NCBI RefSeq assembly: GCF_023502395.1
Contig: NZ_JAMFMB010000001.1
Span: 62,001-126,000 of the forward strand
Source: Ruegeria spongiae
GTDB taxonomy: Bacteria; Pseudomonadota; Alphaproteobacteria; Rhodobacterales; Rhodobacteraceae
DNA length: 64,000 nucleotides
Direction of reading: 5' to 3'
Below are positions 19,439 to 56,569 of this stretch, one piece after another. Below the pieces are notes generated by a model. It was given only the letters and a program-made list of their open reading frames with translations, made no database searches and was not told the DNA's origin. The translations under genes were made by a program, and so were the position numbers. The first letter of the stretch is position 1. Every line of letters begins with the position of its first letter.

Positions 19439-20031
19439 GCACCAAACGGGTCGCGATCCTGATCTCGGGCGGCGGGTCGAACATGCTGACACTGCTCGAC
19501 AGCATGACCGGCGATCACCCAGGCCGACCCTGTCTGGTTCTGTCCAACGATCCACAGGCGGGCGGGCTGGCAAAGGCCGCGGCGCGCGGCGTGCCGGTGG
19601 CCCATGTCGATCACCGACCTTTCAAAGGCGACCGCGCTGCGTTCGAGGCGGCGCTGATTGAGCCGCTGCAGGAGCACAAGCCCGACATTGTCTGTCTGGC
19701 CGGCTTCATGCGGGTGCTGACCGGAGATTTCGTTGCCCGCTTCGAAGGGCGGATGCTGAACATTCACCCGTCACTTCTGCCCAAATACAAGGGCCTGCAC
19801 ACCCATTCCCGCGCGCTTGCGGCAGGCGAGCGCGCGCATGGCTGCACCGTGCATGAGGTCACCGCCGCGCTGGATGACGGCCCCATTCTGGGACAGGCGC
19901 AGGTGCCGGTCGAGCCCGGCGATACGCCCGAGACGCTGGCGGCGCGGGTTCTGGTGCAGGAACACCGCCTCTACCCGGCGGTGCTGCGTCGCTATGCGGG
20001 CGGCGACCGCAGCCCGGTTCTGCTGGGCTGA
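19435..20031 (+). CDS. purN: phosphoribosylglycinamide formyltransferase
   Basis: Transfers a formyl group from 10-formyltetrahydrofolate to GAR, third step of purine synthesis. 198 residues starting at GTG 19435 inside the end of purM. The GAR-binding loop SGGGSNM, the conserved LAGFMRVL segment, and the catalytic Asn-His-Asp set (NIHPS and the Asp in LDDGPILGQ) are all present. The start codon overlap (GTGA) with purM supports a purMN operon as in many proteobacteria. Confidence 0.97.
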
Positions 20032-22483: not shown

Positions 22484-23122
22484 CTACTCCTGCGCCAGGG
22501 TGCCAAGCGCGGTTTTCAGATCGCCATAGCCGGTGAACCGGCGTTCGAATTCAAGGCCCATGCGGTCGGCGCAGGCGCGGGCCTTTTCGGTGAGGGCCGG
22601 GTCGTCGATCTGGGCCTGATAGACCAGCTTGGTGTAATTGCCGAAATACATGTCGCGCAGTTCGGGGTGGCGGTCTAGCCCCATGGGCTTCCAGATGAAG
22701 GCGTCGAATTGGCGCACCAGAAAATCGGTCAGGTAGAAGGCGGTGAACTCGTCTTCGGCAAGCTCGGCAAAGCGGTCGTTGCCTTCGAAGAAGGAATAGC
22801 AATGCGGCCCTGCGACCATCTGGACACCCAGCCGGTCGCAGAGCGATTGCAACAGGCCCCCGGTGCCACAATCGGCATAGACCACGAAAATGTCGTCATA
22901 ATCGTCGCGGTTTTTCAGCACCGTGTCTTCGACGGCCTGCGGGATCTTCTCAGGGTGGAGATGATAGATCGCGGGCAGGCAGGTCAGGGTCATATGCGAC
23001 CAGCCATTGGCCTTGATCAGGGCCAGAATCTCGCGCGCCAGCGCACCGCAGGCGATGAGCAGAATCCGGCCCTCGCCGCGCGCTTGCAGGCCTTTCTGGG
23101 TCAGTTCCGTATCACTGATCAT
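22484..23122 (-). CDS. DUF1638-family protein, last gene of a corrinoid operon
   Basis: A 212-residue soluble protein; start at ATG 23122 with GGGGGAA upstream. It opens RILLIACGALAREILALIKA with a cysteine-glycine turn, then YADCGTGGLL and AGPHCYSFFEG, giving three conserved-looking cysteines (about 26, 86 and 108) that could bind a metal or corrinoid. The family DUF1638 is found near methylamine and corrinoid methyltransferase genes in bacteria and archaea. The gene follows the corrinoid protein and a 24-residue peptide on the same strand. Biochemical role unknown. Confidence 0.8.
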   Translation of the reverse strand: MISDTELTQKGLQARGEGRILLIACGALAREILALIKANGWSHMTLTCLPAIYHLHPEKIPQAVEDTVLKNRDDYDDIFVVYADCGTGGLLQSLCDRLGVQMVAGPHCYSFFEGNDRFAELAEDEFTAFYLTDFLVRQFDAFIWKPMGLDRHPELRDMYFGNYTKLVYQAQIDDPALTEKARACADRMGLEFERRFTGYGDLKTALGTLAQE

Positions 23123-23147
23123 GGCTGGTTCCCCCGGTATTGCGGGC

Positions 23148-23222
23148 TCAGGCCCCAACCCAGACCGTCAGGCCAATCGCAACAACAGCGGCGAGCAGGA
23201 TAATTACGACGTTCGGTTGCAT
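23148..23222 (-). CDS. 24-residue single-span membrane peptide in the corrinoid operon
   Basis: A short ORF too small for routine calling: MQPNVVIILLAA followed by VVAIGLTVWVGA and TGA. Nearly all of it is one hydrophobic segment, enough to cross the membrane once. AAAGGAG is eight bases before the ATG at 23222 (two codons inside a possible earlier ATG at 23228), an excellent ribosome site. It lies 99 bases after the corrinoid gene stop and 25 bases before the DUF1638 start, on the same strand. The perfect site and operon position support real translation; no function is known to me. Confidence 0.6.
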   Translation of the reverse strand: MQPNVVIILLAAVVAIGLTVWVGA

Positions 23223-23321: not shown

Positions 23322-24020
23322 TCAGGCGGAGAGTTGATTGTGTTTGCGGCTGACGAAATCCTTGGCGGTTTCGACCGCCACGGCGGCATCGCGGCAATAG
23401 GCGTCGGCACCGATGGCCTTGCCGAATTCTTCGTTCAGCGGCGCGCCACCGACCAGCACGATATAGTCCTCACGAATGCCCTGTTCGACCAGCGTGTCGA
23501 TCACCACCTTCATGTAAGGCATTGTGGTGGTCAGAAGGGCGGACATCCCCAGAATGTCGGGCGCTTCTGTTTCCAGCGCCTCCAGATAGTTTTCGACCGG
23601 GTTGTTGATGCCCAGATCGACCACTTCGAAGCCCGCGCCCTCCATCATCATCGACACCAGGTTCTTGCCGATATCGTGAATGTCGCCCTTGACGGTACCG
23701 ATCACCATCTTGCCGACGCGCGGCGCGCCGGTTTCGGCCAGCAACGGTTTGAGGATGAACATGCCGCCCTTCATCGCATTGGCGGCCAGCAGCACCTCGG
23801 GCACAAAGAGGATACCGTCACGGAAATCGGCACCCACGATGGTCATCCCGCCGACCAGCGCCTTGGTCAGGATGTCATAGGGCATCCATTTGCGCTCCAG
23901 CAGAATGTTCACGCCCTCTTCGATCTCTTCCTTGAGACCGTCATAGAGGTCGTCGAACATCTGTTGCACAAGTTCTTCGTCGTCGAGTTCCGACAGGATG
24001 ATGTCATCTTCTTCCGACAT
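23322..24020 (-). CDS. corrinoid (cobalamin-binding) methyl carrier protein
   Basis: A 232-residue B12-binding protein of the MtaC/MttC/MtgC type. It carries a methyl group on cobalt between a substrate methyltransferase and a tetrahydrofolate methyltransferase. The N-terminal cap helix bundle (about 20-95) has the typical VPEVLLAANAMKGGM segment. The Rossmann-like domain has GDIHDIGKN (112-120) with His115 as the lower cobalt ligand, then GINNPVENYLEA, SALLTTTMPYM and LVGGAPLN, all standard. First gene of an operon with a small peptide and a DUF1638 protein. Its likely partner, the MttB-family gene, is 11 kb upstream and on the other strand. Confidence 0.95.
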   Translation of the reverse strand: MSEEDDIILSELDDEELVQQMFDDLYDGLKEEIEEGVNILLERKWMPYDILTKALVGGMTIVGADFRDGILFVPEVLLAANAMKGGMFILKPLLAETGAPRVGKMVIGTVKGDIHDIGKNLVSMMMEGAGFEVVDLGINNPVENYLEALETEAPDILGMSALLTTTMPYMKVVIDTLVEQGIREDYIVLVGGAPLNEEFGKAIGADAYCRDAAVAVETAKDFVSRKHNQLSA

Positions 24021-24203
24021 GCGCGCGATTCCTCGGTGTTACGGGTTTGTGACCCTAGGTTATTTCTTGCTTCTTTTTGCTCAAAAGGCCGCAAATGGAC
24101 TGCGTTAATTGCGACACTGGCGGCGCTACAACCGACCTATAGAGATGAATTCGAAATACTGAAAATGAGAAATTTGCAGGAAGATGATGTGTTTGTTGCG
24201 AAT

Positions 24204-24218
24204 GTTCCTCTTATGTTC
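24204..24218 (+). promoter_or_regulatory. LexA-type SOS box upstream of the radical SAM gene
   Basis: GTTC (24204-24207), seven bases, GTTC (24215-24218): an exact match to the alphaproteobacterial LexA direct-repeat box GTTC-N7-GTTC. It ends 12 bases before the ATG and overlaps the only -10-like sequence there (TATGTT, 24212-24217), which is where a repressor would act. Confidence 0.6.
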
Positions 24219-24230
24219 TAGTTTCGATGT

Positions 24231-25310
24231 ATGGATCAATCCGCCGACATATCCACACAGTGCAGGCCGGGACGGGGGGCTGTGTCCAATGCGTCGGGGC
24301 GGTTCGATCTGGCACGCGTTGAGGTCTGGGACGGGTGGGAGATTGCCGAAGAGGCCAGATTGCTGCGCACCGAATTGCGGATCGAACATGCGCGCAGCCT
24401 GATCACCTACAACCGTTCGCCGGACTTGCCCTTCGACCGGTCGATCAACCCTTACCGAGGGTGCGAGCATGGGTGCGTATATTGTTTTGCCCGTCCGACA
24501 CACGCCTATCTCGGCCTGTCGCCGGGGTTGGATTTCGAGAGCGTTCTGGTCGCCCGGCCCAATGCCGCGGATGTGTTGCGGCGGGAATTGTCAGCTCGGC
24601 GGTATAAGGTCGCGACCATCGCGATCGGCACCAATACCGACCCGTATCAGCCGGTCGAACGCGATCACGGTATTGCGCGCGCCTGCCTGGAAGCGCTGGC
24701 AGACTTCAACCACCCGGTTGCGATTGTCACCAAAGGTGCGCTGATCGAGCGGGACCTGGACATTCTGGCACCGATGGCCGCCAAGGGGCTGGTGCGGGTC
24801 GGGATCTCTTTGACCACGCTGGACACCGACCTGTCGCGCCGGATGGAACCTCGGGCGCCGTCACCGGCGCGGCGGCTGAAAATGATCCGGCGGTTGGCCG
24901 AATCGGGCGTGCCGGTGCGGGTGATGACCTCGCCGCTTGTGCCAGGGTTGAGCGATCATGAGCTTGAGGCGCTGCTTGCGGCGGGGGCCGAGGCCGGGGC
25001 CACAACCGCAAGCTGGATCATGCTGCGCCTGCCGCGCGAGGTGTCGGACCTGTGGCAGGAATGGCTGGCCGAGCACTACCCGGATCGCGCTGCGCGGGTG
25101 ATGGCACGGCTGCGCGAGATGCACGGCGGCAAGGACTATGACGCGCGTTGGGGGCATCGGATGCAAGGGCAGGGACCGTATGCCGAGATGGTGGCACAAC
25201 GGTTCAAGACCGCCTGTCGCCGGTTGGGCCTGTCGCAAGAGGCCCCGCCGCTCAGAACCGATCTGTTTGCGGTGCCGCCACAGGCAGGAGATCAGCTTAG
25301 CCTGTTCTAA
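24231..25310 (+). CDS. PA0069-family radical SAM protein
   Basis: A 359-residue radical SAM protein related to spore photoproduct lyase. The 4Fe-4S motif is CEHGCVYC (Cys78, 82, 85) within YRGCEHGCVYCFARPTHAY. The family's N-terminal GRGAVSN...RF pattern is at about 14-25, and TIAIGTNTDPYQPVE and IVTKGALIERD are conserved barrel strands. The substrate is not known; kinship to a DNA-repair lyase and the LexA box make a DNA-damage role worth testing. Start ATG 24231 has no clear ribosome site, so a very short leader is possible. C-terminus is LSLF. Confidence 0.9.
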   Translation: MDQSADISTQCRPGRGAVSNASGRFDLARVEVWDGWEIAEEARLLRTELRIEHARSLITYNRSPDLPFDRSINPYRGCEHGCVYCFARPTHAYLGLSPGLDFESVLVARPNAADVLRRELSARRYKVATIAIGTNTDPYQPVERDHGIARACLEALADFNHPVAIVTKGALIERDLDILAPMAAKGLVRVGISLTTLDTDLSRRMEPRAPSPARRLKMIRRLAESGVPVRVMTSPLVPGLSDHELEALLAAGAEAGATTASWIMLRLPREVSDLWQEWLAEHYPDRAARVMARLREMHGGKDYDARWGHRMQGQGPYAEMVAQRFKTACRRLGLSQEAPPLRTDLFAVPPQAGDQLSLF

Positions 25311-25510
25311 CCGCGTGGATCGCAAAGGCAGACACAGGTCTGCCGGGAGGAACAGGCGATCTCCCTGAAAACGGGCTCAATCCGCTCGACGATTCAGCAG
25401 CCTGACCGGGCTGTACCTGACGGCGATTGGGCAGTATTGCCGATGGAAGCCCACAACGATCCGGGCGACCCCCGCCACTCAAGATTCACCTTGCCAAACA
25501 GAGACCGGAT

Positions 25511-56047: not shown

Positions 56048-56569
56048 TTGGACTGGTACGACTCGATCTTCGAGATGATCGACATGCGGAGCTTCTCGAA
56101 CCTCTGGTTCTGGATTGGGCTCGCGGTCATGTGGTCTACAGCCAGCCACTGGGTGATGGGCATTCCCTTTGACATGGTGACCCGGGCGCGCCGTCTGGGT
56201 GGGCAGGCCGAACACGACCTGAACGACATCACACGGATCAATGTGAACCGGCTGCTCTATATCACCGATATTTCCGGGTTGTGGATATTGGCCATCGGTT
56301 GCTTTTTCCTGTCCGGGATGGCGATGCTGGGCTTCTTCTACGGTATCGAGTTCGCACAGGCCCTGTTCCTGCTGGGGTTCCCAATGTCGGTTGTCGGGCT
56401 GGTCAACCTGGCGACAGCGCACAAGATTCGCGCACAGGGCGCACAGGGACGCGACATTGCCCGCCATCTCAACCGAAGCCGGATCATCATACAGGTCATC
56501 GGCATGATCTCGATCTTTGTAACTGCACTCTGGGGCATGTATCAGAACCTTTCCATCGGTGCCCTCTAG
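56048..56569 (+). CDS. small integral membrane protein, Rhodobacterales-type
   Basis: A 173-residue protein with four hydrophobic segments (about 18-36, 72-96, 98-118 and 140-163) and short loops. Start is TTG 56048 with AGGGGA seven bases upstream (MDWYDSIFEMIDMRSFSNLW). Homologues in this order are sometimes labelled 'component of SufBCD complex'; I recall that label but see no motif that supports a role in iron-sulfur assembly. It lies 22 bases ahead of mfd, possibly in the same transcript, and diverges from hemB. Confidence 0.75.
   Translation: MDWYDSIFEMIDMRSFSNLWFWIGLAVMWSTASHWVMGIPFDMVTRARRLGGQAEHDLNDITRINVNRLLYITDISGLWILAIGCFFLSGMAMLGFFYGIEFAQALFLLGFPMSVVGLVNLATAHKIRAQGAQGRDIARHLNRSRIIIQVIGMISIFVTALWGMYQNLSIGAL

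Follow-up and report, generated by a model that had tools for sequence, protein, structure and literature searches.

The window (the whole 64-kb stretch of DNA analysed) carried on its plus strand a gene predicted to encode a radical SAM protein of 359 amino acids, preceded by a LexA box lying between two predicted promoter hexamers. Divergently oriented genes on the minus strand encoded a B12-binding corrinoid protein (23322-24020) and a DUF1638 protein (22484-23158). The features of the locus were as follows.

24196-24201, plus strand: predicted -35 hexamer TTGCGA (consensus TTGCAA), from the profile of box-aligned Rhodobacterales-like promoters
24204-24218, plus strand: LexA box GTTCCTCTTATGTTC, an exact GTTC-N7-GTTC in the 17-bp promoter spacer, present in 78 of 84 family genomes
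24219-24224, plus strand: predicted -10 hexamer TAGTTT (consensus TAnnnT), from the same profile
24231-24233, plus strand: ATG start codon and predicted +1 of a leaderless mRNA, 6 nt past the -10
24231-25310, plus strand: PA0069-family radical SAM protein, 359 aa (NF033668, 503.9 bits; Pfam Radical_SAM PF04055, 77.1 bits)
24462-24485, plus strand: [4Fe-4S] ligands C-x3-C-x2-C (CEHGCVYC), codons 78-85, with C78, C82 and C85 in 51 of 51 aligned sequences
25293-25307, plus strand: QLSLF, predicted sliding-clamp (DnaN) binding motif, codons 355-359, with a similar motif, widely defined, in 174 of 179 relatives

The exact GTTC-N7-GTTC that the sequence-only reading had placed 12 bases before the ATG was confirmed at these positions on the plus strand, the gap between GTTCCTCTTATGTTC and the ATG at 24231 being 12 nt, and its assignment of the protein to the PA0069 family agreed with an NF033668 score well above the cut-off of 360 bits and with the invariant C-x3-C-x2-C motif. 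The same reading had the box overlapping the only -10-like sequence, which required correction: in Rhodobacterales-like promoters the conserved -10, TAnnnT (TAGTTT in the window), directly follows the box, and the box fills the spacer.

GTTC-N7-GTTC is the LexA consensus of Caulobacter (PMC12700426 and PMC9578287, excerpts). The exact motif was observed twice in the window against 1.69 expected, and 149 times in the 4.59-Mb source genome against 108 for a reversed control pattern; because the genome-wide count barely exceeds this control, the bare box was rejected as evidence. Thus, the exact motif alone is not significant, whereas its position is. The second copy in the window, at 56210-56224 on the minus strand, is probably there by chance. 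The source genome encodes a LexA protein (TIGR00498, 181 bits, at C1:294471), whose gene has its own exact box just 5' (C1:294424-294438). Exact boxes were also found upstream of recA (C1:270861), 40 nt before the start of a UvrD-type helicase gene, and 14 nt before that of a gene for an ImuB-like Y-family polymerase; these box-bearing genes fit predicted control by LexA. Two further ORFs of this genome followed exact boxes. One, encoding a Macro-domain protein (L197, contig C109 of G000), starts 53 nt after the A/T-rich box GTTCTCTTTTTGTTC near position 19627 and is a candidate SOS gene by this proximity; the other, encoding a C5-cytosine DNA methylase (L184, contig C31 of G000), starts 200 nt after the box GTTCTCTTAATGTTC near position 93475.

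Of 120 genomes belonging to the same bacterial family, 84 carried the radical SAM gene; at E 0.001 the other 36 contained nothing matching the gene family, and the gene can thus be lost. Within 300 bp upstream of the match, the exact box was present in 78 of the 84, the source genome included, with 77 of the 78 carrying it on the coding strand. It was missing from six (L020, L025, L026, L123, L121 and L145), the last two retaining a one-mismatch box near the usual position. An exact box was also found at 36 of 37 named Rhodobacterales-like loci (on the plus strand in 32 of the 37, and in reverse orientation as the sole box in 4), at 36 of 43 other named alphaproteobacterial loci, being absent from 7, and at 27 of 30 further loci of the same class; the family-genome, named-locus and further same-class sets may share genomes. 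Taken over 152 orthologues, 140 had the exact box in the upstream 300 bp versus 1.8 expected from 100 dinucleotide shuffles (largest value 6), a control that covered 152 of 164 promoters, the 12 reverse-stored loci left out there being included in counts such as 78 of 84. Control stretches inside the gene and downstream of it contained the box in 2 of 98 cases each, and a similar scan of recA, used as a comparison gene, gave 25 of 30 family genomes. Absence of the box from orthologous promoters, which the sequence-only reading had named as the observation that would count against it, was thus looked for, and the box was present in the large majority of the family genomes and of both named sets. 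The comparative evidence was judged decisive for a predicted LexA-controlled promoter.

Outside the class, 44 genomes of the same phylum had matches; the analysis kept the 39 that scored above the family cut-off and dropped the 5 weak ones. None of these 39 relatives had the alpha-type box upstream, and 29 had CTGT-N8-ACAG, the gamma/beta LexA type, the exact box being absent from the other 10; 28 of the boxes were situated within about 105 bp of the match start and one at -292, and mononucleotide shuffling, the control applied to this set, gave 1.27 per set. The LexA boxes of E. coli and P. aeruginosa are comparable to this pattern (PMC9578287, excerpt). Upstream of a Streptomyces plasmid relative (L343) an exact GAAC-N4-GTTC, GAACATGTGTTC, was observed, and an Arthrobacter plasmid relative (L342) had the near-consensus CGAACATACATTCG, which is upstream provided that the MRWD start is correct. 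The type of box therefore changes between classes, yet control appears to be kept or regained, which argues for a function in the damage response. PA0069 itself reportedly belongs to the P. aeruginosa LexA regulon described by Cirz in 2006; among the matches listed in open-licence literature, no link between PA0069 and SOS was found. The earlier proposal that the gene is tied to the SOS response gained support from the boxes on both sides of the class boundary, and SOS control of the radical SAM gene is, on these comparisons, almost certain.

The arrangement of the promoter was also conserved. When 99 Rhodobacterales-like promoters with a plus-strand box were aligned on it, TTGCAA occupied -8 to -3 relative to the box, TAnnnT followed the box, and the ATG stood at +27. 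The -35 profile was T91 T69 G77 C69 A54 A49 percent and the -10 profile, directly after the box, T75 A90 ... T66 percent, while no purine-rich consensus before the ATG appeared in the position profile of these 99 promoters. Among the 77 family promoters with a plus-strand box, 69 had an in-frame start codon 11-13 nt past it; the recA boxes began 69-98 nt before the match, with one second box at 128. The hexamers were imperfect, TTG occurring in 41 and TA in 57 of the 77 family promoters, and a generic promoter scan of 24020-25420 returned no promoter at its threshold. The 17-bp spacing between the hexamers, the start codon at the expected +1, and the box 11-13 nt from the start point to a leaderless mRNA, which, judging from these alignments, is likely in Rhodobacterales. 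In other alphaproteobacteria the distance from box to start was not fixed as it is in Rhodobacterales; 13 of their 36 box-bearing promoters had TAnnnT 5-7 nt before an in-frame start situated 23-25 nt past the box, and thus a leaderless start with a shifted box may recur in part of this group.

The window protein ends in DQLSLF. In bacteria, QL(S/D)LF is the textbook motif for clamp binding (PMC9690074, excerpt), and residues 355-359 conform to the revised consensus, Q-phi-x-[L/M]-[F/L] or a 6-mer (PMC13254535, excerpt). A wide definition, which accepted QxxLF or a Q-hydrophobic form of either length within the last 12 residues, was matched by 174 of 179 relatives, comprising 135 of 140 alphaproteobacterial and all 39 outside-class proteins; for shuffled tails the mean was 3.4 and the maximum 9 (200 rounds, n = 179). 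The five tails failing this definition were L056, L081, L083, L101 and L259, four of which had a Q-L-like motif just outside the definition or further in, with L083 lacking any. The published consensus matched 112 of the 140 alphaproteobacterial and 8 of the 39 outside-class tails; with M allowed in position 2, these counts rose to 126 and 22 (148 of 179), and this form occurred in none of 3876 internal non-overlapping 12-mers. Rows of the 51-sequence alignment contain the matched part only, and its C-terminal column counts were not used as evidence. In the AlphaFold2 model the last block had a mean pLDDT of 67, with a short helix predicted at 354-358. Binding of the enzyme to the clamp is, from the conservation of its tail, a likely property.

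The model itself, built from the 51-sequence alignment, had a pLDDT of 79.9 and a pTM of 0.82. The best Foldseek match was spore photoproduct lyase (SPL; E 3.7e-8), and VIA-align superposed the model on 4fhc and its mutants with Z 18.1-19.0 and an rmsd of 3.1-3.9 A over 261-268 residues at 13-14% identity; the distant relationship to this enzyme suggested from the sequence alone thus held as the closest fold of a predicted structure. When the PDB was searched by sequence with the family profile, SPL was not among the entries listed at E 10; the link to SPL therefore depends on the fold search together with weak NCBIfam matches (below), and 'SplB' is a fold name that does not prove the activity. 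Together, this fold and the C-terminal clamp motif (in the wide definition), on which the sequence-only reading was silent, lend support to the earlier hint of a repair function, and a DNA lesion is, by a modest margin, the favoured substrate.

The best-surviving alternative is that the substrate is a protein or RNA, the enzyme being an SOS-controlled modifier of the clamp, a polymerase or tRNA and the clamp motif its recognition handle. Many radical SAM enzymes do act on protein or RNA, the motif aims at DnaN itself, and the next fold matches after SPL were NifB (Z 14.2), SuiB, PFL-AE and SkfB, spanning Z 13.5-14.2. These lie about 4-5 Z units below SPL, however, and the cross-class SOS-type boxes and the clamp motif both indicate DNA, which leaves a protein or RNA substrate unlikely, if the least so of the alternatives considered.

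A second alternative concerns the tail, which might be a docking or degradation tag for a partner other than the clamp. Short motifs are ambiguous, and many outside-class tails, of the QGSLF and QQSLF types, deviate from the strict consensus. Against this, the variants mostly had the published 5-mer form, with some at (QMGLDF) or near (QLTFDF, QMEFEF) the 6-mer form, and the motif was located at or near the extreme C-terminus. Distant plasmid relatives, nine of which were taken from the 40 listed among 77 plasmid records, bear on the same point: two haloarchaeal relatives, expected to use PCNA, lacked the motif. Two bacilli lacked it as well, which counts against clamp binding. A non-clamp partner is rated improbable. 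Among other relatives, the actinobacterial tails were QLTLL (Streptomyces L343) and QEPLF (Arthrobacter L342), and L344 has a frame that ends within the domain. Two clostridial plasmid relatives, L346 (Acetoanaerobium, QLSFF) and L350 (Roseburia, QQSLFD), had clamp-like ends; both are radical SAM proteins that align with half of the query at about 32% identity.

A third alternative takes the name splB literally, the enzyme being a true spore photoproduct lyase, or a lyase of another thymine dimer, under SOS control. The best fold match (Z 18-19) speaks for it, as do weak matches of 28 of the 51 family members to the NCBIfam photoproduct lyase model TIGR04070 (best E 6.2e-6) and of 15 to TIGR03886, and the alpha/beta gene is named splB in PMC3323433 (excerpt). 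The window protein itself, on the other hand, matched neither model at E 1. The only cysteines conserved among the 51 sequences were the cluster ligands C78, C82 and C85, with C11, C152 and C329 not conserved; the protein is therefore not an ordinary photoproduct lyase. Cys140 of 4fhc, the catalytic cysteine of SPL, whose mutants are named in the PDB titles of SPL structures, falls in a ...C-[TY]-[ST]-D... segment that the solved SPL shares with the SPL-like protein L355. The PA0069 family has GTNTDP there, with T134 (in 48 of 51) in place of the cysteine, and the third ligand is followed by F86 (in 51 of 51) at the place of Tyr98 in SPL. These positions were placed by eye, since the hhalign comparison with an SPL-like protein covered residues 165-280 only, leaving out the catalytic region. 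Carriers of the PA0069 gene here are, moreover, not spore formers. Such a lyase under SOS control is thus quite improbable, and spore photoproduct itself is a slightly poorer candidate still as the substrate. SPL-family proteins L351, L352 and L355 had no terminal clamp motif. L355, from the alphaproteobacterium G147, scored 281 bits against TIGR04070 (cut-off 400) and keeps the SPL cysteine segment; the G147 genome encodes both this protein and a PA0069-family gene.

The divergent B12-binding gene (start 24020) was rejected as the very improbable owner of the box: a corrinoid-protein homologue, counted regardless of orientation, is encoded on the upstream side in 60 of 67 Rhodobacterales-like loci, but none was found there in the 43 other alphaproteobacterial loci, 36 of which keep the box, and in most Rhodobacterales-like loci the box is situated 11-13 nt before the radical SAM start, in the spacer of its promoter. 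A defence-system reading was likewise set aside, with no PADLOC match. As for mobile copies, nine viral contigs had matches, only the best three exceeding 50% identity and all three lying at a contig end, and in 11 phage records the match covered less than half of the query.

Taken together, the gene probably encodes a radical SAM enzyme that is under SOS control, is tethered to the clamp and acts on damaged DNA, a reading built on the conserved box and tail motif, the promoter geometry, the modelled fold and the lack of a conserved extra cysteine. What we infer here is actual induction, a leaderless start, clamp binding and damaged DNA as the substrate, and the sequence of events would be as follows. 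LexA bound to the box between -35 and -10 would keep the gene off; upon DNA damage, RecA-triggered cleavage of LexA would free the promoter, and the transcript would begin at the A of the start codon and be translated without a leader. The C-terminal QLSLF would dock on the beta sliding clamp, in its hydrophobic cleft, and this may bring the SPL-like barrel to DNA at stalled forks, gaps, repair tracts or newly made DNA, where a 5'-deoxyadenosyl radical would attack the lesion, or else a partner bound to the DNA, in a reaction independent of the SPL cysteine. Chances are evenly balanced for the wider generalization, namely a widespread SOS-response class of radical SAM enzymes that are carried by the clamp, act directly, reverse or process a DNA lesion in the dark with no need of SPL's cysteine-tyrosine relay, and are made from a leaderless mRNA in Rhodobacterales. 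The two independent signals, persisting SOS-type boxes and a terminal clamp tag, make a repair role testable. If the reading is true, a radical SAM enzyme joins the sliding-clamp toolbelt, and a further activity would dock on the clamp after damage, beyond translesion polymerases and mismatch repair. The family is widespread, as judged from 84 of 120 genomes, yet it stands in NCBIfam as a hypothetical equivalog.

Part of this has precedent. In the excerpts available, PMC3323433 predicted that 'splB' is under SOS control in alpha- and beta-Proteobacteria but did not observe this in gamma (Vibrionaceae, E. coli), and PMC8565304 predicted it for SplB/COG1533 in Bacteroidetes; for Bacteroidetes, Gram-positives and Balneolaeota, the SOS sets given in the latter paper and in PMC7739468 include SplB/radical SAM proteins. 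We infer that the 'splB' or SplB of PMC3323433 and PMC8565304 is the PA0069 family. With the prediction of PMC3323433 already in print, the SOS-control part is not new; the boxes outside the class suggest SOS control in lineages outside the alpha class beyond those of that paper, to be read with the proviso that the 39 genomes may be beta or gamma. Excerpts of PMC3765255 link SplB-like enzymes to ImuB-C by gene neighbourhood, and a table of the S. venezuelae LexA set in PMC9380542 (excerpt) contains a radical SAM protein of unspecified family. For Streptomyces, the parts of PMC12924846 (2026) available describe the SplB label of a Rv2578c-family gene as doubtful and its link to DNA repair as speculative, and report its inactivation in one strain without clear fitness cost. 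What is new, as far as searched, is that the protein ends in QLSLF, a textbook sliding-clamp-binding motif: no paper joining the PA0069 family to the sliding clamp was among the matches listed in open-licence literature, and neither a clamp-binding C-terminus nor a leaderless promoter whose spacer holds the box was found for PA0069 or 'SplB' in the portions of the literature examined.

Among known systems, the window protein is a member of the PA0069 family (NF033668), COG1533 'SplB', with which it shares the predicted SOS control. It is related to the Rv2578c family (NF038135), scoring 243.8 bits, below the cut-off of 430; the actinobacterial relatives L342 and L343, two records only and unscored as to family, combine SOS-type boxes with the tails QEPLF and QLTLL. 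The radical SAM barrel is common to the window protein and spore photoproduct lyase (4fhc and mutants), whereas the window protein lacks the conserved extra Cys, has Phe for Tyr98 (by eye), and differs in its C-terminus. Pol IV, Pol V and ImuB are clamp-tethered SOS proteins; they have in common with the predicted enzyme both SOS control and a short clamp-binding motif, but the window protein is a radical SAM enzyme and not a polymerase.
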